Assembly (NCBI GenBank): GCA_022446885.1
Contig: JAKVBU010000029.1
Coordinates: 1 to 32,769 of the forward strand
Origin: Phycisphaerales bacterium
GTDB lineage: Bacteria > Planctomycetota > Phycisphaerae > Phycisphaerales > SM1A02
Reading direction: 5' to 3'
DNA: 32,769 bases
Part shown: positions 5,385 through 14,808 of the stretch, one piece after another
Layout of the letters: each line of letters starts with the position of its first letter
Numbering within the stretch: the first letter of the stretch is position 1
Notes under the pieces: generated by a model
Told to the model about the DNA's origin: nothing
What the model saw: only the letters and a program-made list of their open reading frames with translations
Database searches by the model: none
Made by a program: the position numbers and the translations under genes

Positions 5385-8168
5385 ATGAACTCCGAGAGCA
5401 GCCAAGAACCGGCTGCAACCGGCTTGGCGCCAGCCCACATGGCGCTCAATGGTTGGAATGCCGCCTGGGTCGAATCGATGCAGGCGCAGTGGAGCCGTGA
5501 TCCCGCATCCGTTCCAGGTGCCTGGGCAGAGTTCTTCCGAGGGTTTGAATTGGGGGCCGCGGCCGAGACTGCCTCCGAGGGCAACCCGCTGCAGTCGCGC
5601 GTCAATGCACTGATCGCCCGCTACCGAATGCTTGGCTGCTTTGGAGCCGATCTGGATCCGCTGGGGCTTGCAACACGCGATGACTCCCCCCTCTCACTGG
5701 AGGCGGTGGGTCTCAGCGATGACGATCTCGACAGTCTTGTGGATCCGGCCGATCTACCGCTGGAGGGGCCTCTGCCTCTACGAACTGTGGTGGACCACCT
5801 TCGCCGATCGTGGTGTGGCACGCTGACGGCTGAGATAGAGCACATTCGCGACGAGACCCAGAAGGCTTGGCTGCGGGAGGCCATCGAGTCTCGAGTGACG
5901 GCAGTGCCATCCGGGGCCGACCGCTGCGGGCGAATTCTGCGTGAGTTGCAGCAGGCCACCGGGCTTGAACGATTCCTGATGCGCCGATACATCGGCAAGA
6001 AGTGGTTCAGCCTCGAAGGAAGCGAGTCACTGATCCCCATGCTCAACGAGTTGCTCGTTGAAGCTTCGCGGGACAAGGTGGAAGAACTCGCCTTCGGCAT
6101 GGCCCACCGGGGTCGCATCAACGTGCTGGTGAACATTCTGGAAAAGGGATACGACCAGCTCTTCACCGAATTCGAAGAGTCTTGGGGGGAGGACTTCCTC
6201 GACGGCGGCGGCGACGTGAAGTACCACCGGGGGTACAGCGCTGACATTGTCACCGATACCGGCGCCCCGATGCACGTGTCGATGTCGTCGAATCCTTCCC
6301 ACCTTGAGTGGGGCCACCCAGTCGTTCTTGGCCGGGTGCGAGCCAAACAGCGGCTGCGTCAAGACGATGACCGAACGCGATGCATTCCAGTGCTCGTACA
6401 CGGCGACTCGTCGTTGCCCGGACAAGGTGTTGTGCAGGAGACACTCAATCTGTCGCGGCTGGACGGCTACGCGGTAGGCGGCGCTCTGCACATCGTGATC
6501 AACAATCAGGTGGGCTTCACCGCTGAGTTGCACGAAGCCACCAGCGGGCGATTCTGCACCGACATCTTCCGCGCGTTCGACATTCCGGTGCTGCACGTGA
6601 ACGGCAACGACCCCGATGCCTGCGTAGACGCGATGCTGCTGGCCTACAGGTGGCGACAGCGATTCGGCGAAGACATCGCGATCGATCTGGTCAGTTATCG
6701 CCGCCACGGCCACAACGAGACAGACGAACCTACCTTCACAAATCCAGTGCTCTACGAAGCCGTGAAGGCCCAGCGGCCGGTGGTCGAACTCTATGCCTCG
6801 CATCTGCTCGAGTCTGGCTTGATCGATGCCGGCCAGGCCGATCAGGCCACGCGTCGCCTGCTCGATGTGATGGACGAAGCACAGACCCGCATTCGCAGCA
6901 CCCCGGTGACACCAGTTCCACCTGCATTCGACGATGGTTCAACCTGGGCAGGCTTTTCGCAGCGATACGAATTGGAGTCCCCCGACACCGCCGTTGGACA
7001 AGCGCAGCTGGAGCGAATTGCAGCGTCATTGACAGGGTGGCCAGAGGGATTCACGCCACATCGCAAGCTTGAACGACTCATCAATCAACGCAGCAGCAGC
7101 ATCGAGCGCGATGCACCGCTCGACTGGGCGATGGGCGAGTTGCTCGCTTTTGGTTCACTGCTGCTGGAGGGCGTGCCGATTCGGCTGACCGGCGAGGACT
7201 GCGCCCGTGGCACCTTCAGTCACCGCCACGCCGTGTTGCGAGATCAGCAAGACGGCCAGCCATTCGTGGCCTTGAATGCGATCGACCCCAACCAAGCACA
7301 GTTGTGCGTGCACAACAGCCCAGTCAGCGAAGCGGGTTGCATTGGTTTCGAGTACGGCTACTCGTTGGGTGATCCGAACATGCTGGTGCTGTGGGAGGCG
7401 CAGTTTGGCGACTTCGCCAATGCCGGCCAGGTCTACTTCGACCAGTTCCTCGCCTCGGCCGAGAAGAAGTGGCGCCGCTACTCAGGGCTGGTTTGCCTGT
7501 TGCCGCACGGCTACGAGGGGCAAGGGCCGGAACACTCCTCAGCAAGACTGGAGCGCATGCTGCAGTTGTGCGCCGACGACAACATTGAGGTTGTGAACCC
7601 CACCACTCCAGCCCAGTGCTTTCACCTTCTTCGGCGGCAGATGAAGCGTGACTTCCGCAAGCCACTGCTAGTGTTGACGCCCAAGAGCCTCCTACGCCAC
7701 CCCAAGGCCGTCAGCGCCGTGAGTGATCTGACCAGCGGACGGTTCCAACATGTCATCGATGATCCCGGAGCCGACCCCGATCGCGTCCAGCGACTGATCT
7801 TCTGCAGCGGCAAGGTCTATTACGACCTGATCGACCACCGCAGCCGGACAGCGGCGCCCCATCGAACGGCGATCGTACGAATCGAGCAACTACACCCGTT
7901 GGACATGGACACAATCGAGTCGCTGCTCAGCCGGTATGCCAACGTTGATGCCCGTATCTGGGTACAGGAAGAGCCGCTGAATGCAGGGGCCTGGCACTGG
8001 ATGGCGGATCGGTTCCGCGAGCAGGTTGGTTTGCGACTGCAGGTGGTGTCACGGGCTGCAAACGCCTCACCGGCAGTCGCGTCTACGAAAGTGCACAATG
8101 ACGAACAGCATCATCTGATGGTTGAGGCCCTCGGGCTGTCAACCATCGGATCGGAAGGTGCCTCATGA
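5385..8168 (+). CDS. sucA: 2-oxoglutarate dehydrogenase E1 component
   Basis: Thiamine-diphosphate-dependent decarboxylase of 2-oxoglutarate; passes the succinyl group to the lipoyl arm of OdhB in the TCA cycle. 927 residues, matching the homodimeric E1o family (E. coli 933). The N-terminal E2-binding segment has [12 protein letters not shown] and [13 protein letters not shown]. The core has [13 protein letters not shown] (His241 in HRGR), [36 protein letters not shown] and [12 protein letters not shown]. The C-terminal pyrimidine-binding half has [24 protein letters not shown] and [20 protein letters not shown] 5385 is chosen because it follows the extended -10 element and gives a normal-length N-terminus; ATG 5340 in the same frame overlaps that element. 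The stop overlaps odhB in ATGA, implying translational coupling. Confidence 0.96.
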
Positions 8169-9430
8169 GCATTGACATCCACGTTCCAGACATGGGCGAG
8201 TCGATCACCGAAGTGCGGCTGGGTCAATGGCTCAGGGCAGAGGGTGACTGGATCGAGCGAGATGACTTGCTCGTTGAGATCGAGTCGGACAAGGTCACTC
8301 AGGAGTTGCCTGCACCCGCCGAGGGTCTGCTCTCGATTTCACAGTCTGAAGGTGCAGATGTGCCGGTAGGCGCTGTCATCGGCACCTTGGATCCAGACGC
8401 CCCACGCCCAACCGAGGCAACGCCGGTGACCGGCGAAGTGATCGATACCCCGGCGACATCTGGTGGAACGCCGTCCGGCACGCCCGCCAGCGATGTCCCG
8501 ACGACGCGAGTCGAGGTGGCGACGGAGACCGCTGCGTCAGCCAATGTTCGTGCCACGCCCATGGCGAGGCACATCGCCGCCGAACAGGGCGTGGATCTCA
8601 CCGATGTGCACGGATCGGGGCCAGCCGGCCGCATCATGAAGGCAGATGTTCTGCACGTGCCCACCCGCGAGGGGAGCTCCCCTGAAGAGCCTCCCGCAAA
8701 TGAGCTTGCCCCTGCCACCGAGCGAGCCATTCGCCGGGAGCGAATGAGCCCGCTGCGACGGCGCATCGCCCAACGCCTCGTGGCGGCCCAGCACGAAGCG
8801 GCGATGCTTACGACGTTCAATGAGGCCGACATGAGCGCGGTCATGAAACTTCGCTCGATGCACAAGGACGACTTCCACGATCGATACGGCGTCAAGTTGG
8901 GATTCATGTCTTTCTTCGCCCGGGCCGTGGTGTCCGCCCTCAAGGCATTTCCGGCGATCAATGCCTACGTAGACGGTGATGTCTTTGAGTACCACGACTA
9001 CGTGGACCTCTCAATCGCGGTGGGCACTGACAAGGGGCTTGTGGTGCCCGTCATTCGCGACGCCCACCAGTTGGACTTCGCCGGCATTGAGGGTTCCATC
9101 TCCGATCTGGCTGCCAGAGCACGATCCGGTGGGCTCTCGATGCAGGACCTCACCGGCGGTACCTTCACGATCAGCAATGGCGGCGTGTACGGATCGATGA
9201 TGAGTACGCCGATCCTGAACCCACCCCAGTCGGGCATTCTCGGATTGCACCGAATCGCCAAACGACCGGTTGAAGATCCAGACAATCCGGGGCAGATCGT
9301 GCTGCGACCGATGATGTATCTGGCGCTGTCATACGATCATCGGATTGTTGACGGCGCTGGTGCCGTCGGATTCCTGGTGCATGTCAAGAACTGCATCGAG
9401 TCTCCAGACCGGCTGCTGCTGGGTCTCTGA
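8165..9430 (+). CDS. sucB: Dihydrolipoyllysine succinyltransferase, E2 of 2-oxoglutarate dehydrogenase
   Basis: Transfers the succinyl group from lipoamide to CoA. 421 residues. The lipoyl domain (1-78) carries the acceptor lysine K43 in ESDKVT. A Pro/Thr-rich linker (about 80-125) follows, then the peripheral-subunit-binding domain (about 128-163, ending in [13 protein letters not shown]), then the acyltransferase core (about 190-421) with SYDHRIVDG, giving catalytic His392 and Asp396. The DMGESITE start of the lipoyl domain and the partner gene point to the succinyl rather than acetyl enzyme. ATG overlaps the odhA stop (8165-8168) and GGAAGG lies just upstream. No E3 gene follows; the next gene is on the other strand. 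Confidence 0.95.
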
Positions 9431-9459
9431 CTCAAGCCGAGGCACCCGCCAGGCCCGAT

Positions 9460-9732
9460 TCACAGCATCACTCGAATCCACCAGACGATTGCGACGACAC
9501 CCAAGGCCAGACCCGCGATCGACAGCCAGATGCCCGTCGAAACCAGACCTTGACCCTGAAATCGTGCCTCCAGCCGCAACTGGGTCGTGGCGGTTCGAGC
9601 CCGCAACAGCCCCATTGCGGCCAGCAACAACCCCACCAGCGGCACCCAGCACAAGAGCACACTCAGCAAGCCGTACATGGCCGCGGGCGTCGCGCTCGGC
9701 GCCAGGTTGTACTGTCGGGTCGAATCGGTCAC
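9460..9732 (-). CDS. Small two-helix membrane protein, DUF4190-like
   Basis: 90 residues from a GTG start at 9732. A short polar N-terminus precedes a hydrophobic segment (about 19-45), a basic loop with LRART, and a second segment (about 62-88) containing GIWLSIAGLALGVVAIVWW. The hydrophobic, basic-loop, G-rich hydrophobic layout resembles DUF4190 proteins, whose function is unknown. It is convergent with odhB (29 bp) and divergent from rsmH (20 bp). The minus strand has TACCAT 7 nt before the GTG and no Shine-Dalgarno. It is likely a real gene because the frame is composed as a clean membrane protein and the slot is otherwise empty. Confidence 0.7.
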   Translation of the reverse strand: MTDSTRQYNLAPSATPAAMYGLLSVLLCWVPLVGLLLAAMGLLRARTATTQLRLEARFQGQGLVSTGIWLSIAGLALGVVAIVWWIRVML

Positions 9733-9739
9733 GGTGCCG

Positions 9740-9745
9740 ATGGTA
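9740..9745 (-). promoter_or_regulatory. -10-like element for the small membrane protein
   Basis: TACCAT on the minus strand (4 of 6 to TATAAT) ends 7 nt before the GTG at 9732. It has the same position relative to the start codon as the carA element. No -35 is recognisable and the match is weak. Confidence 0.25.
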
Positions 9746-9752
9746 GAGCAGC

Positions 9753-10670
9753 ATGGAAGAAGATCACGGCCACATCCCGGTGCTGATGCAAGAGGTGCTT
9801 GAGCATCTGGCGCCCTCAGCAGGCGAGACCGTGCTGGATCTGACGCTTGGCCGCGGCGGACACGCCCTCGAATTGGGCCGTCGGGTGGCCCCGGGGGGCC
9901 GCCTCATTGGGCTCGATGCAGACGCAACCAATGCTCAGTATGCCCAGTCTCGGCTCGAATCAGCCCAAATCGAGGCCACTGTCGTGCATGAGAACTTCGC
10001 CCGGGTCGCGGATGTGATGAGGGATCTGGGCTGCCGCGCTGATGTAGTGCTGGCCGATCTGGGTGTCGCGTCGGTCCATCTGGATGAGGTTGATCGGGGT
10101 TTTTCACTGACCGGAGACGCCCCACTGGATATGCGGCTGGATCGCCGGGCCCCTGGGACGGCGGCAGATGTCCTGGCCAACTGGTCGCAGCAGGAACTCG
10201 CAGACCTCATTACCCGGGTGGGCGAGGAGCCGCTTGGGCGCCCCATCGCCTCGAAGATTGCACAGGAGCGAACCAGCAGGCCGATCTTGACCACGGGTCA
10301 ACTTCGCGATCTCGTCGTGCAGGTGTATGGCGCGAGAGCGAACACGTCCCGCCGACACCCGGCGACCCGGACCTTCATGGCGCTCCGGATCGCGGTCAAC
10401 GATGAACTGGCGGCGCTGGACACGCTGCTGGCGAGAATCGAGTCGGCGGCGACGGGAGCCAGTTGGCTCGCCCCTGGGGCCAGGGTCGGCATCATTGCCT
10501 TCCACAGCCTCGAGGACAGGCCGGTGAAGCGTTGCTTCGCTCGCCTGGCGGCACGCGAGTTGGTTCGCCTGCCGCGACGCTCGGGCATCAGCCCCAGCGA
10601 GGAAGAATGTGCCCGCAACAGTCGTGCACGATCAGCCCGACTGCGTACCATGGAACTGTCCCCCACCTGA
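9753..10670 (+). CDS. rsmH: 16S rRNA (cytosine-1402 N4)-methyltransferase RsmH (MraW)
   Basis: SAM-dependent methyltransferase for C1402 in the ribosomal P site. It is classically the gene just before ftsL and ftsI in the division cluster. 305 residues. Seen: HIPVLMQEVLEHL at the start, the SAM motif LDLTLGRGGHALE (about 29-40), ADLGVASVHLDE, APLDMRLD, HPATRTFMALRIAVNDEL and IIAFHSLEDRPVKRCF. All family signatures are present. ATG 9753 opens directly onto the conserved N-terminus. mraZ, often upstream, is absent here; the upstream neighbour is a divergent small membrane protein. Confidence 0.96.
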   Translation: MEEDHGHIPVLMQEVLEHLAPSAGETVLDLTLGRGGHALELGRRVAPGGRLIGLDADATNAQYAQSRLESAQIEATVVHENFARVADVMRDLGCRADVVLADLGVASVHLDEVDRGFSLTGDAPLDMRLDRRAPGTAADVLANWSQQELADLITRVGEEPLGRPIASKIAQERTSRPILTTGQLRDLVVQVYGARANTSRRHPATRTFMALRIAVNDELAALDTLLARIESAATGASWLAPGARVGIIAFHSLEDRPVKRCFARLAARELVRLPRRSGISPSEEECARNSRARSARLRTMELSPT

Positions 10671-10703
10671 CTTGCTGTCAGGCAACGCACGGATGCGTCG
10701 CCC

Positions 10704-11348
10704 TTGACCAGAGAAAACAAGATCGCCCTCGTCATCGGGTTCGCCATCATGCTCGTGATCGGCGTGCTGCTGTCCGATCATCTAGCCCAGACTGTACGAG
10801 GGCCAGCTGCGGATCTCTCGGCCATCAACGATCCCCTGAGCGTGCCTCCAGGTGACTCGGTGGAGTTTCTGCCGCTGATGGCTGAAGATGAACTGGCCTC
10901 TGCGCCCCCCCAGCAGCGTGTGTCCCCTGAACTACCGGACGCCTCCGACGCCGCCAAGGGGCCCACCATGCACGTCGTTCAAGCCGGGGAGACCCTGCGG
11001 GCTATCGCACGAGCACACTATGCCGACGCCGATCTGGCAGGGGCGCTCGCCAGACACAATCGCCTGCCGGCCCCAGATCGACTGGCCCGCGGCCTTCGCC
11101 TGCTCATTCCTCCACGAAGCGAGTTGCCCGCTGAGACGAACTCGACGCCTGAGCCAGCCCCGGTGGCCAATCCCATGGCCACCTACACCGTGCAATCGGG
11201 CGACACCCTCTCCCAACTGGCTCAGAAGCTCATGGGCACTGCCAAGGCGACCGATCGACTCTGGGCGCTCAACAAGCCGACGCTGTCCCACCCGGATGCG
11301 CTTCGTGTGGGCATGGAATTGAAGTACCCCATCCAGGCGGGGCCATGA
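10704..11348 (+). CDS. Membrane-anchored protein with two LysM domains in the division cluster
   Basis: 214 residues from a TTG start at 10704; no ATG or GTG in frame fits better. A single N-terminal transmembrane segment (about 7-24) is followed by a Pro/acidic linker, LysM 1 (about 88-136, HVVQAGETLRAIARAHY...LIPP) and LysM 2 (about 159-209, YTVQSGDTLSQLAQKL...LKYP). LysM binds N-acetylglucosamine in peptidoglycan, so this is probably a periplasmic, wall-binding protein tethered to the inner membrane. It stands between rsmH and the FtsL-like gene and overlaps the latter by ATGA, so it is very likely co-expressed with the septal synthase. No catalytic domain is visible. Confidence 0.85.
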   Translation: MTRENKIALVIGFAIMLVIGVLLSDHLAQTVRGPAADLSAINDPLSVPPGDSVEFLPLMAEDELASAPPQQRVSPELPDASDAAKGPTMHVVQAGETLRAIARAHYADADLAGALARHNRLPAPDRLARGLRLLIPPRSELPAETNSTPEPAPVANPMATYTVQSGDTLSQLAQKLMGTAKATDRLWALNKPTLSHPDALRVGMELKYPIQAGP

Positions 11349-11602
11349 AGCAGAAACTTCTGCTGAGTGTGATTGCCTTGAGCGCCATGGCGCTCGCGCT
11401 ACTCTCTCTTCGACAGACTCGAGTGGTCGAAGTAAACCGAATGAACCGCACGTGGCGGCTGCTTCAACATGAACAGGATGCCTGGCAACGCCTGCGGCTG
11501 GACATCGCTGCAGCTGCCCGCCCCCAGTTGCTTCGGCCAGAGGATGAAGAGGACGCCTGGTCAGCTGCCGTTGACCAGCGGGCAGACACACCACAGCCAT
11601 GA
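11345..11602 (+). CDS. FtsL-like bitopic division protein
   Basis: 85 residues: short cytoplasmic start, one transmembrane helix (about 5-22), then a basic, leucine-spaced helical stretch (RVVEVNRMNRTWRLLQHEQDAWQRLRLD) that could form a coiled coil, and an acidic C-terminus. FtsL diverges greatly in sequence; this call rests on topology, size and position immediately before ftsI, with ATGA overlaps on both sides. In the known divisome, FtsL pairs with FtsB and activates FtsWI. An unrelated small bitopic protein cannot be excluded. Confidence 0.6.
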   Translation: MKQKLLLSVIALSAMALALLSLRQTRVVEVNRMNRTWRLLQHEQDAWQRLRLDIAAAARPQLLRPEDEEDAWSAAVDQRADTPQP

Positions 11603-13320
11603 GCAACGAGCACCTCGACCAGATGCAAGAGTCGCAGGCGGGCCGCTGCGAAGCCTGGAGCACTGTGCTGTTGGGACTCTTGGTCGTGGCATTGATGCTC
11701 GTACCACTCAGGGTGGTCCAACTGCAGTGCTGGCCGGATGCTGCACTCGCACGGGCGGCCGGCCGAACCGAGTCAACCGCTGCCGCCATGGCCCGACGAG
11801 GCGACGTACTGGATCGTCGTGGGCGGGTCCTGGCCACAAGTACGCTGGGCTGGCGAGTATTCGTCGATCCGGCGGGAACTGATGACCCTGGCCTGATCGG
11901 CGCCCATCTGGCGGGCACGGTCGGGCTGGATGCCGGTGAAGTGGACCGCAAGTTGTCGCGGCGCCTGGACAGTCGTTTTGTGCCGGTGTCTGACGTCCTC
12001 GCCGATGCTCAAGTGGACGGCCTTCGACAAAACCCCATACGGGGCGTGGGCCTGGAGCCGCGGCCCATCCGGCACTACCCCAACGGCATGGCCGGTGGCA
12101 GCCTGATCGGTCTCGTGGGCTTTGACCACACCGGCCTGGCGGGCATCGAGCACCGTCAGCAACGGCGTCTGGAGGGCCGTAGCGGCACCATCACCGCTGT
12201 TCGTGACACGAGACGCCGCACACTGTGGGTGCACCCGACAGCCGTGGACGCGCCTACCGACGGCGACGACATTCGGCTGAGCATCGATCTTGCCATTCAG
12301 AACATGGCTGAGGAGCGCCTCGCCGCTGCAGTACGCGAACTGGGCGCCGCCGGCGGCCGACTGGTGATCGTCGATCCTGCGACTGGAGAACTGCTCGCAG
12401 TCGCCGACATGCTGGCCGACGACCATCCTGATCGGTCTTCAGACCGACGGCTGGACCGCAACCGATGTGCCACCGACCCCTACGAGCCCGGCTCCACCTT
12501 CAAGCCGTTCATCTGGGCTGCGGCGCTCGAGGCTGGAGTAGTGCGTGAGCAGGAAGTGCTGCCGACGCCCTCTGATCGCCCGCATCGCACCTCACGAGGC
12601 CGCCGTATTCGTGATGCCCACTACGAGGGGCCATCCACCTTCAGGCGGGTCCTCGTGCGATCGCTCAACAGCGGCATGGCGATCGTCGCCGAACGGCTCA
12701 GTGAGGATGCCGTTCGAACGCTGGTGGCACGACTGGGATTCGGCCGCTCGACAGGCTGTGGGCTGCCAGGAGAGACCGGTGGCATCGTGACGCCCGAGTC
12801 ACGATGGTCACACTACACCCAGACTTCGGTAGCAATGGGGCATGAAATCTCCGTGACCACCTTGCAACTCTCACGTGCCTTCTGCGCCTTTGCTCGCGAT
12901 GGCACGGTGCCCGACCTGACGCTGCTCGCTCGAAGCGACGGAGCGCCCCTCGTACAGCAGCGGATCTTCAAGCCCGAGACTGTCACGGCAGCTCGCAGTG
13001 CCATGCGTGAGGTCATGTTGGAAGGCACTGGCCGACGCGTGCAGTCTGGCTTGTACTCCATGTTCGGGAAGTCGGGCACAGCACAGTTGCCCATCGCCGA
13101 GGGCGGCGGCTACCACGAAGATCGGTACATCTCCTCATTCATCGCCGCGGCGCCGGTCGAAGATCCGGCACTGGTCGTGCTCTGTGTGATTGACGATCCG
13201 GATCGCTCGAAAGGCCGCTGGTACGGATCGTCCACGGCCGGCCCCGTAGTCCGCGATCTGGTGGAACAGGCGCTGCCCTATCTGGGCGTGGCTCCGGATC
13301 TGGAGCGAGATCCAACCTGA
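11599..13320 (+). CDS. ftsI: Class B penicillin-binding protein, septal transpeptidase FtsI (PBP3)
   Basis: Cross-links peptidoglycan at the division site. 573 residues. One N-terminal transmembrane helix (about 20-38) is followed by the class B pedestal starting with MARRGDVLDRRGRVLA. The transpeptidase domain has all three active-site motifs: SxxK in EPGSTFKPF (Ser299, Lys302), SxN in RSLNSGMA (Ser355, Asn357) and KSGT in FGKSGTAQ (from Lys491). No C-terminal PASTA domain. ATG overlaps the FtsL-like stop (ATGA), which supports the septal (FtsI) rather than elongation (PBP2) assignment. It ends 10 bp before the convergent UbiA-like gene. Confidence 0.93.
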   Translation: MSNEHLDQMQESQAGRCEAWSTVLLGLLVVALMLVPLRVVQLQCWPDAALARAAGRTESTAAAMARRGDVLDRRGRVLATSTLGWRVFVDPAGTDDPGLIGAHLAGTVGLDAGEVDRKLSRRLDSRFVPVSDVLADAQVDGLRQNPIRGVGLEPRPIRHYPNGMAGGSLIGLVGFDHTGLAGIEHRQQRRLEGRSGTITAVRDTRRRTLWVHPTAVDAPTDGDDIRLSIDLAIQNMAEERLAAAVRELGAAGGRLVIVDPATGELLAVADMLADDHPDRSSDRRLDRNRCATDPYEPGSTFKPFIWAAALEAGVVREQEVLPTPSDRPHRTSRGRRIRDAHYEGPSTFRRVLVRSLNSGMAIVAERLSEDAVRTLVARLGFGRSTGCGLPGETGGIVTPESRWSHYTQTSVAMGHEISVTTLQLSRAFCAFARDGTVPDLTLLARSDGAPLVQQRIFKPETVTAARSAMREVMLEGTGRRVQSGLYSMFGKSGTAQLPIAEGGGYHEDRYISSFIAAAPVEDPALVVLCVIDDPDRSKGRWYGSSTAGPVVRDLVEQALPYLGVAPDLERDPT

Positions 13321-13330
13321 TCGATCTGCC

Positions 13331-14284
13331 TCACTGCCAGTCAACAAGCTGGCTGCTGGCACCTGCGACCTCACGCAGCAGCATCAACATCAGCAGCGCC
13401 ACAATGGTCGCACCCGCGAAGCCCAGTGCCCAGCCGTGTGCGCCGACCGCCATGCACCATGTTGCGGCGCAAGCGCCGCTCCAGACGCCGGTTGTTCTAA
13501 CCACGCGATCGGCCGCACGCAGGCTGCTTCGGGCTGATCTCACCGCCTGAGCCAACAGCACAACCAGTACGAGCATGGCGGCGCCGGGCCAGAGCAGCCC
13601 CCACTGCACGAGCAGGTCACCCTGACCAGTCATGGGAATAGCCAGAAGCAGAACCGACACGACAACCCACTCGATCGTCAGACCGATCAGCGCCCGAGGG
13701 CTGGGACGGGGCCGCTTGTTTGCCAGCACATGAACCAGCAGCGCGATGGCCACGGCAATGGTGAACACCGACCATGGGAGCCAGCCCACCGCCGGCGGCC
13801 ACCCTCTCAGCATCGACAGCCCGGCCACAAGAAGCCCAGGCATCAACAGACCGATCGCAGGAATGAACCGGGCCATGGCATTGTGAAAGAGCAACGCTCC
13901 GGCCAACAGAACCAGCACGTAGATCGACTGCCCACCGACCATCGCGGATCCGAGCACTGCCAAGATCAACGAGCCGGAGGCAATGAGCGCGGCCTGCCCG
14001 GCGCCAATACTGCCCGAGGCCAAAATCCGGGTTGGATCCAAAGCGAGATCGCGACGCAGGTCGATCAGATCGTTGAGCGCCATCCCGTGCACCCCCAGCC
14101 CGACGGCCATGCAGCCGGCGCCCACTGCCACCAATGGCAAATCCTCCATTGCTGCTGGATCAGCCATGTGCGAAAGCACCACCCCCAACACCGCCAGGCA
14201 GGTCAGTGAGAAGGCAAGAGCCGCTCGCGCCAGAAGCTCCCCTCGCCGGCGAGCCGTATGCATCGTGGATTCATCGGTGCTCAT
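13331..14284 (-). CDS. UbiA-superfamily prenyltransferase homologue with only one Asp motif evident
   Basis: 317 residues, very hydrophobic, with about eight or nine predicted transmembrane segments. The first UbiA motif is clear: NDLIDLRRD (N71, D72, D75, D79), followed by DPTRILASGSI, which matches the family pattern of DxxNPxRPLxxG. These Asp residues bind Mg-diphosphate of a prenyl donor. The expected second Asp-rich motif in the later cytoplasmic loop is not recognisable; the corresponding loop reads NKRPRPSPRALIG. The substrate is unknown (quinone, heme, lipid or none). ATG 14284 has GGAGGG upstream. It is divergent from ribH across 38 bp. Confidence 0.72.
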   Translation of the reverse strand: MSTDESTMHTARRRGELLARAALAFSLTCLAVLGVVLSHMADPAAMEDLPLVAVGAGCMAVGLGVHGMALNDLIDLRRDLALDPTRILASGSIGAGQAALIASGSLILAVLGSAMVGGQSIYVLVLLAGALLFHNAMARFIPAIGLLMPGLLVAGLSMLRGWPPAVGWLPWSVFTIAVAIALLVHVLANKRPRPSPRALIGLTIEWVVVSVLLLAIPMTGQGDLLVQWGLLWPGAAMLVLVVLLAQAVRSARSSLRAADRVVRTTGVWSGACAATWCMAVGAHGWALGFAGATIVALLMLMLLREVAGASSQLVDWQ

Positions 14285-14309
14285 CGCGCCACATGCCCTC
14301 CGCGACTAC

Positions 14310-14315
14310 GATAGT
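14310..14315 (+). promoter_or_regulatory. -10-like element directly upstream of ribH
   Basis: GATAGT (4 of 6 to TATAAT) ends 7 nt before the ribH ATG. An overlapping alternative is TACGAT at 14307-14312. No Shine-Dalgarno is seen in the 20 nt before the ATG. No TTGACA-like -35. Confidence 0.3.
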
Positions 14316-14322
14316 TGGTCTG

Positions 14323-14808
14323 ATGCATGAAACACGAACCAGTACGGCATCCGCGTCCGATCTCAGCATCGCGATCGTCACCGCCCGTTGGCACCAATCG
14401 ATCACGGACGCCATGTGTCATGGCGCTCAGGAGGCGTTTGCTACCGCAGGGGGAAGCGCCGGCAACCTGTTGCACATCTGCGTTGCGGGAGCCTGGGAAC
14501 TGCCGGTGGTGGCAGCTCAGGTAGCCCGCCGCGACGACATTGACGGCGTCGTGGCAATTGGGTGCGTCATCAAGGGAGAGACCAGTCACGACGTCTGGAT
14601 CAACACCGCTGTAGCGACAGCGCTGGCCCGCATCAGTGTTGACTGTGCCAAGCCCGTTTCGCTGGGCGTGCTCACATGCGACTCGGTCGATCAGGCCCAA
14701 GCCCGCGCCGGCGGCGCCAAGGGCAACAAGGGGAGCGACGCGATGCAAGCCTGCATCGAGACCATCCGCACCCTGCAGCAGATGCAGTGCGAGGAGGCCC
14801 GATCGTGA
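14323..14808 (+). CDS. ribH: 6,7-dimethyl-8-ribityllumazine synthase
   Basis: Condenses 5-amino-6-ribitylamino-uracil with dihydroxybutanone phosphate in riboflavin synthesis; usually a large icosahedral or pentameric assembly. 161 residues, normal length. Seen: ARWHQSITDAM (substrate-stacking aromatic at Trp23), GAWELPVVA, IGCVIKGETSHDVW with the proton-transfer His89, and GVLTCDSVDQAQARAG...NKG with Arg128. ATG 14323 gives the family-length protein; the longer upstream frame is read through the divergent gene and rejected. It is the first gene of a plus-strand run and shares GTGA with nusB. Confidence 0.95.
   Translation: MHETRTSTASASDLSIAIVTARWHQSITDAMCHGAQEAFATAGGSAGNLLHICVAGAWELPVVAAQVARRDDIDGVVAIGCVIKGETSHDVWINTAVATALARISVDCAKPVSLGVLTCDSVDQAQARAGGAKGNKGSDAMQACIETIRTLQQMQCEEARS

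Follow-up and report, generated by a model that had tools for sequence, protein, structure and literature searches.

Gene arrangement at the locus

The window, that is the whole stretch of 32,769 nucleotides that was analysed, belongs to a Phycisphaerales genome of 2.87 Mb. On the forward strand it carries rsmH (mraW), coding for a 16S rRNA methyltransferase, as the upstream dcw neighbour (9753 to 10670; TIGR00006 245.9 bits, cut-off 154.3; PF01795). This gene is followed on the same strand by a hairpin of the CsrA/RsmE type, ACGC-ACGGAT-GCGT (10685 to 10698), and by three genes: an open reading frame (ORF) for a bitopic double-LysM protein of 214 amino acids with TTG as start codon (10704 to 11348), the gene of an FtsL-like bitopic protein of 85 amino acids (11345 to 11602), and an ftsI-type gene for a class B penicillin-binding protein, the septal transpeptidase (11599 to 13320; PF00905 180.2 bits, PF03717 46 bits). 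The LysM gene is the first gene of this lysM-ftsL-ftsI cassette. The canonical dcw cluster starts with rsmH-ftsL-ftsI. The same order of rsmH, FtsL-like gene and ftsI is found here, with an extra gene for a transmembrane (TM) LysM protein between rsmH and ftsL.

A bitopic double-LysM protein between rsmH and the FtsL-like gene had been proposed in the preliminary description of this DNA and is confirmed by the open ORF, the Pfam domains and the helix in the AlphaFold model. The span assigned to it, 10704 to 11602, holds two genes and not one; the LysM gene ends at 11348, and 11602 is the end of the FtsL-like gene. The reported overlaps, LysM with FtsL-like gene and FtsL-like gene with ftsI, are both present in the window with 4 nt each, and given these, translation of LysM, FtsL-like and FtsI protein in step is plausible there. 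However, the LysM/FtsL overlap is not conserved: it occurred in 8 of the 79 loci in which the FtsL-like ORF was found and is a trait of few lineages.

For the FtsL-like ORF neither a Pfam family nor an FtsL match was obtained, the sole hit in Pfam and NCBIfam being SLATT_1 below its cut-off. It was labelled FtsL-like for its position and size, a single TM helix and a recurring RQQR...W.LR.EIA pattern noticed by eye. A short TM ORF ahead of ftsI was recognised by hydropathy in 79 of 81 loci, the other two being without ftsI match; a possible coiled coil was judged by eye. The gene 3' of ftsI in the window is not murE; it encodes a membrane protein on the opposite strand (13331 to 14284), which looks UbiA-like by eye and gave no Pfam match at E up to 1.

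Domains and conservation of the LysM protein

The whole protein matched the LysM family PF01476 with 56.1 bits (Pfam cut-off 20.9), and each of the two domains also passed alone, domain 1 (10971 to 11111, forward strand) with 23.3 bits and domain 2 (11184 to 11327, forward strand) with 37.7 bits. In the AlphaFold model a single N-terminal helix of residues 3-31 (block pLDDT 86-97) is followed by a linker of low confidence (pLDDT 53-58) and by two LysM-like folds; the mean pLDDT was 82.1 and the pTM 0.39. A fold search of the PDB returned LysM-containing structures among the matches listed.

The best-conserved part of the protein is its N-terminus, residues 1-31 including the TM helix (MTRENKIALVIGFAIMLVIGVLLSDHL; 10704 to 10796, forward strand). 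Among 45 sequences the mean pairwise identity was 0.62 for residues 1-29, and 0.37 and 0.41 for the two LysM domains. The TM helix is thus more conserved than a mere anchor should need. This fits a helix that has a partner in the membrane.

The best NCBIfam match was the 'peptidoglycan-binding protein LysM' YgaU/Kbp (PRK11198) with 56.3 bits, below the cut-off of 134. Kbp carries a BON domain, and no BON match was reported by Pfam for the LysM protein of the window, which differs from YgaU/Kbp also in being TM-anchored and dcw-encoded. A second protein with N-terminal hydrophobic stretch and two LysM domains was seen in the frame of 243 amino acids at G000:C98:44248-44601 (L122), away from the dcw genes. 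Its N-terminus does not have the MTRENK...SDH signature.

Conservation of the gene order

The order-level set comprised 61 genomes. With rsmH found in 60 of them (no match in G060) and the weak match in G013 unread, 59 loci were available. In all 59 a LysM-matching ORF was the next one after rsmH on the same strand, and its start was no more than 253 nt from where the rsmH frame ends. The gene of the septal transpeptidase followed in 56 of the 59 (in L078 by a short match only, E 9.6e-9); in the three loci without ftsI (L048, L071, L075) the contig stops first. A held-out collection consisted of 80 loci from other genomes, mostly Phycisphaerales, Phycisphaerae or Planctomycetota MAGs, of which 19 were dropped because they did not differ from discovery loci over 120 nt. 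Among the 61 loci kept, rsmH and ftsI were each present in 59.

The preliminary description had made its proposal depend on the presence of the LysM gene at this position in close relatives. Besides the 59 order-level loci, this was the case in all seven sampled genomes of the same class outside the order, with the LysM gene directly after rsmH in 7/7 and ftsI in 6/7; the exception, a genome of family f8 (L205), has rsmH-LysM and no ftsI match in the stretch read. Judged from the sequences, the gene order is almost certainly conserved within the Phycisphaerales set. In the four genomes of genus g36 (L060-L063) an FtsW-type gene lies divergent within about 1.5 kb of rsmH by coordinates.

For the remaining phylum 40 loci were picked by hand, 20 mostly for LysM and rsmH matches close together and 20 by the place of rsmH alone. 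The LysM gene stood directly after rsmH in nine of the 40: four loci of the same class, four of family f32 and one of f73, the last with a weak LysM match and no ftsI. A fifth f32 locus showed LysM followed by ftsI, with rsmH not seen. Fifteen loci had a TM-LysM gene some 4-11 kb downstream of rsmH; in another 15 none was detected within the stretch read. Seven of the 20 loci picked by the place of rsmH alone had a TM-LysM gene in the stretch. For ten of the 18 top LysM loci of the phylum search no rsmH was present within 1.5 kb. By best NCBIfam match, the flanks in this set included murG-LysM-murC (L238), ftsW-LysM-murG (L229) and murB-LysM (L217), and a same-class locus (L204) gave the run rsmH-LysM-(119-aa ORF)-ftsI-murE-murF-mraY-ftsW-murG-murC. 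Hence, the term 'lineage-specific', used for the protein in the preliminary description, is too narrow, since some further lineages of planctomycetes also carry related TM-LysM genes within the dcw cluster. In parts of the phylum the gene appears to have belonged to this cluster for a long time, in at least two positions, and it does not look like a local insertion.

Hairpin ahead of the LysM gene

The conserved hairpin before the LysM gene had been overlooked in the preliminary description. In the window it has a 4-bp stem and an ANGGAN hexaloop, with the loop GGA at 10691 to 10693, i.e. at Shine-Dalgarno distance; its position and covariation are kept in relatives and held-out loci. In the relatives CA-N-GGA-N-G precedes the LysM start by an almost constant distance, start codons having been placed partly by the N-terminal motif. 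An ANGGAN site was found in 50 of the 59 discovery loci, with a stem of at least 2 bp in 44 and the loop beginning 11-17 nt before the start codon. Hairpins of at least 2 bp with a loop start at -18..-11 were thus present in 44/59 loci compared with 0.26% of 11,403 random positions. Among 4011 candidate start codons in these loci, 31 had a hairpin of at least 3 bp at that distance, and 29 of the 31 were LysM starts. In the held-out loci, where the site was sought at -20..-9, the hairpin was found in 54 of 61. Its form, an ANGGAN hexaloop closed by C-G on a short stem, is that of CsrA/RsmE sites in both sets. A second ANGGAN hairpin further upstream, at -65..-36, was present in 15 of the 59 loci versus 2.4% in the control; in five g38 loci it was one of 2 bp.

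Covariation of the stem was 0.471 in the discovery loci (rows chosen for a 2-bp stem), against 0.135 after shuffling and at most 0.163 when slid, and 35 cells were changed on both sides compared with 14.3 in shuffles. The underlying alignment (A1) omits the six of the 50 ANGGAN-site loci that have no 2-bp stem. For the held-out loci (alignment A4, 50 distinct windows, stem not required, best-stemmed site taken where there were several) the value was 0.387, compared with 0.182 in shuffles and no more than 0.092 after sliding. Neither the pairs changed on both sides nor the pair types were conspicuous in the two sets (for the pair types, 31 and 62 of 500 shuffles were as high). Compensatory change of the stem is supported on three of five measures, in related sequences whose counts are not independent and whose relatedness inflates them.

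The predicted minimum-energy fold of the window leader contains the hairpin stem, with the outer A-U of the loop paired as well. Its folding energy was better than that of shuffles for the 22-nt hairpin (z -2.17) and not clearly so for 60 nt (z -0.96). Eight leaders were examined in this way, and for two of them, L066 and L279, the predicted energy was no better than that of shuffles. With Rfam nothing was detected at E up to 1 in window positions 8000 to 14500.

A 2-bp hairpin was missing in 15 of the 59 discovery loci, namely all five of genus g38, all four of genus g36, L036, L042, L049, L084, L085 and L086. The g36 loci (L060-L063) have TTG as LysM start. In the held-out set the hairpin was absent, or in one locus the start was not located, in seven of 61. 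L084, without hairpin at lysM, has a 5-bp hairpin 14 nt before its FtsL-like start; the idea that ftsL starts generally carry a hairpin was dismissed (0/79). Outside the order, most LysM leaders resemble by eye an ordinary ribosome-binding site, and one same-class locus (L206) carries two ANGGAN hairpins, one of them with AAGGAG. The hairpin is very probably a real operator.

CsrA genes and the probable reader of the hairpin

CsrA (PF02599) was detected above cut-off in 60 of the 61 genomes, 51 of them having two or more matches. In the genome of the window, a FliW-like gene lies upstream of the one for CsrA1. The gene for CsrA2 adjoins a NifU-like one, and an MraZ-like gene is oriented convergently to it; the names FliW-like, NifU-like and MraZ-like come from reading the translations. 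MraZ is the canonical dcw regulator. Aligned to the solved CsrA of E. coli, both proteins keep R6, R7, V40, V42, H43 and R44, and position 4 is L in CsrA1 and I in CsrA2. The arginines among them are RNA-contacting residues. L4 and R44 are named in a published account of CsrA (PMC7652899).

In that account, the SELEX sequence RUACARGGAUGU, mostly hexaloops with stems of at most 4 bp, is given for CsrA sites, and for RsmE complexes an ANGGAN loop and sites that overlap the Shine-Dalgarno sequence (PMC7652899). An 'CANGGANG-containing apical hexaloop' is the form stated in a second report (PMC4894983). The LysM leader has in common with leader sites of CsrA, RsmA and RsmE (glgC, hfq, hcnA, flaA) the ANGGAN hexaloop, the short stem and the GGA at the Shine-Dalgarno position, and the second upstream site in 15/59 Phycisphaerales loci is a further likeness. 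Unlike in those leaders, the putative target is the lysM-ftsL-ftsI cassette in bacteria without detectable FtsZ.

The leaders of the csrA genes themselves were also read. ANGGAN hairpins were found in five of seven csrA1 loci, at -75, -48 or about -17 (L114-L118), which suggests autoregulation by CsrA. Among the csrA2 leaders there were three with such hairpins in 21, none at -18..-11. CsrA2 is of a type with a four-residue insertion (G000:C27; L121 1007-1573 on the forward and 1898-2158 on the reverse strand). Of the 21 csrA2 loci, 18 have a NifU-like neighbour and 11 an MraZ-like gene no more than about 0.7 kb away, which is convergent in nine cases and lies on the same strand in two. All 11 are from the window's own family, where the MraZ-like gene lies away from rsmH. 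When 149 phylum genomes were searched for CsrA2, members of the order alone reached 69 bits or more, the next best match having 45.7.

One dedicated CsrA as reader of the site was considered and not upheld, as no CsrA copy tracks the hairpin. In five of the six f5 genomes just one CsrA match was obtained, and all five f5 loci read carry the hairpin. The lack of a tracking copy, together with a loop GGA at Shine-Dalgarno distance, would be expected if the hairpin is a genuine translational operator that is read by another factor, or a structured ribosome-binding site acting by itself. We consider this unlikely: a plain ribosome-binding site would not need a fixed C-A-N-GGA-N-G loop on a compensated stem, this combination is the published CsrA/RsmE form, CsrA genes are present in nearly all genomes, and csrA1 leaders bear such hairpins in five of the seven loci read. 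On this evidence CsrA probably reads the LysM leader hairpin.

Proposed role of the LysM protein

FtsZ (TIGR00065) was detected in none of the 61 genomes, the control being positive in 13 of 14. A SEDS protein matching the ftsW model was present in all 61, in only two of them above the curated cut-off; most genomes have two ftsW-model matches, and the cut-off does not separate FtsW from RodA. Planctomycete division without FtsZ is described as an open question in PMC5147048, and every dcw gene of Planctopirus limnophila except one is reported to be non-essential (PMC12283558).

Gene order, domain make-up, TM conservation, covariation and fixed position of the hairpin, and CsrA genes in the same genomes were directly observed. 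As the best explanation for the whole, we propose with moderate confidence that the LysM protein is a standing subunit of septal synthesis and that its cassette is gated by CsrA. The TM helix would dock on a membrane partner in the FtsW-FtsI-FtsL complex, and the two LysM domains, as expected from this domain, would hold nascent or existing peptidoglycan. With docking in the membrane and a grip on peptidoglycan, the synthase would be tethered to its own product via the LysM protein. For control of the cassette, a dimer of the CsrA family may bind the ANGGAN hairpin, which presents the Shine-Dalgarno-like GGA, and keep the ribosome off the first start codon. Upon relief from CsrA the LysM protein would be made, and FtsL and FtsI would follow by coupling, lysM-ftsL-ftsI presumably forming one transcript. 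Against the proposal stand the largely non-essential dcw genes of P. limnophila and the second protein with a hydrophobic N-terminus and two LysM domains, encoded elsewhere in the genome.

That the LysM protein works with the septal synthase, as the preliminary description had suggested, appears reasonably likely. A function as a general envelope tether or elongation factor, with the dcw place reflecting wall genes in general, would account for the TM-LysM genes that adjoin murG/murC, ftsW/murG and murB instead of ftsL-ftsI in the three other planctomycete loci with named flanks, and LysM alone indicates just peptidoglycan. Such a function is improbable, given that within the order the gene stands directly behind rsmH and is succeeded by ftsI in every locus whose contig extends far enough. 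This includes the window, although the gene after ftsI there is the opposite-strand one and not murE.

The closest known proteins of similar build are YneA of Bacillus subtilis, the best worked-out one, and ChiZ of Mycobacterium, which are likewise bitopic with an N-terminal TM helix and LysM outside and act as division inhibitors. PMC13396833 describes YneA as a small, damage-induced TM-LysM protein whose TM helix contacts the septal synthase by binding TM7 of FtsW and whose LysM domain must bind peptidoglycan. The structure model and Pfam domains give the window protein the same architecture of N-terminal TM helix and LysM. YneA has one LysM domain and is induced by damage according to that text, whereas the window protein is fixed in the dcw cluster and has two LysM domains, a long linker and a CsrA-type leader. 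A brake like YneA or ChiZ, with the TM helix on FtsW, LysM blocking the output and CsrA holding the brake off until division must stop, could use a CsrA site at the first gene to govern the LysM protein alone, but it is quite improbable, since the LysM gene is fixed ahead of ftsL-ftsI where YneA is damage-induced, the YneA model NF010723 of NCBIfam was far missed (20.4 bits, cut-off 60), and encoding a brake in line with the synthase would be odd.

If the septal-subunit reading holds, a conserved protein beside the septal synthase is a concrete candidate subunit for planctomycete division without FtsZ, and the hairpin provides a starting point for experiments on the switching of the division operon. 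CsrA is known elsewhere as a regulator of lifestyle and motility. It is conceivable, though we put this forward tentatively, that septum formation in this FtsZ-less order is gated post-transcriptionally by CsrA at the start of lysM-ftsL-ftsI, linking the availability of a divisome with an extra TM-LysM tether to lifestyle or the flagellar state (FliW-CsrA1). In the part of the open-access literature covered, judged mostly by titles and openings of abstracts, no description of a dcw LysM protein of Planctomycetota or of CsrA control of their division genes was found. If true, CsrA control would extend to the septal synthase, in a phylum for which that literature yielded no such CsrA study.

Further occurrences of the motif

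The motif was rejected as a genome-wide finder of a regulon on the outcomes of two models. With R1 the LysM leader came first in its own genome (21.3 bits), R1 having been trained on that leader. The other 29 R1 loci read included 22 across a frame of at least 200 codons and eight with a possible start at the right distance. Model R2, trained on the held-out loci, gave between 5 and 114 matches in each genome (E up to 2) for a 26-nt motif. Among the matches listed, the LysM leader ranked top in three genomes (G008, G034, G035) and the ftsL hairpin in G027; in the genome of the window another place ranked first. Ten of the 30 R2 loci read had a start codon at fitting distance, including three LysM genes, one ftsL and, for example, two ORFs that looked Nudix-like and PlsY-like by eye. 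One genome, G023, had 114 R2 matches compared with 5-47 in the other 60; they lie in L333 and on other contigs, several of them close together on one contig. A tandem repeat was not found in the one locus of G023 examined; the hairpins of this genome may be a dispersed repeat able to titrate CsrA.
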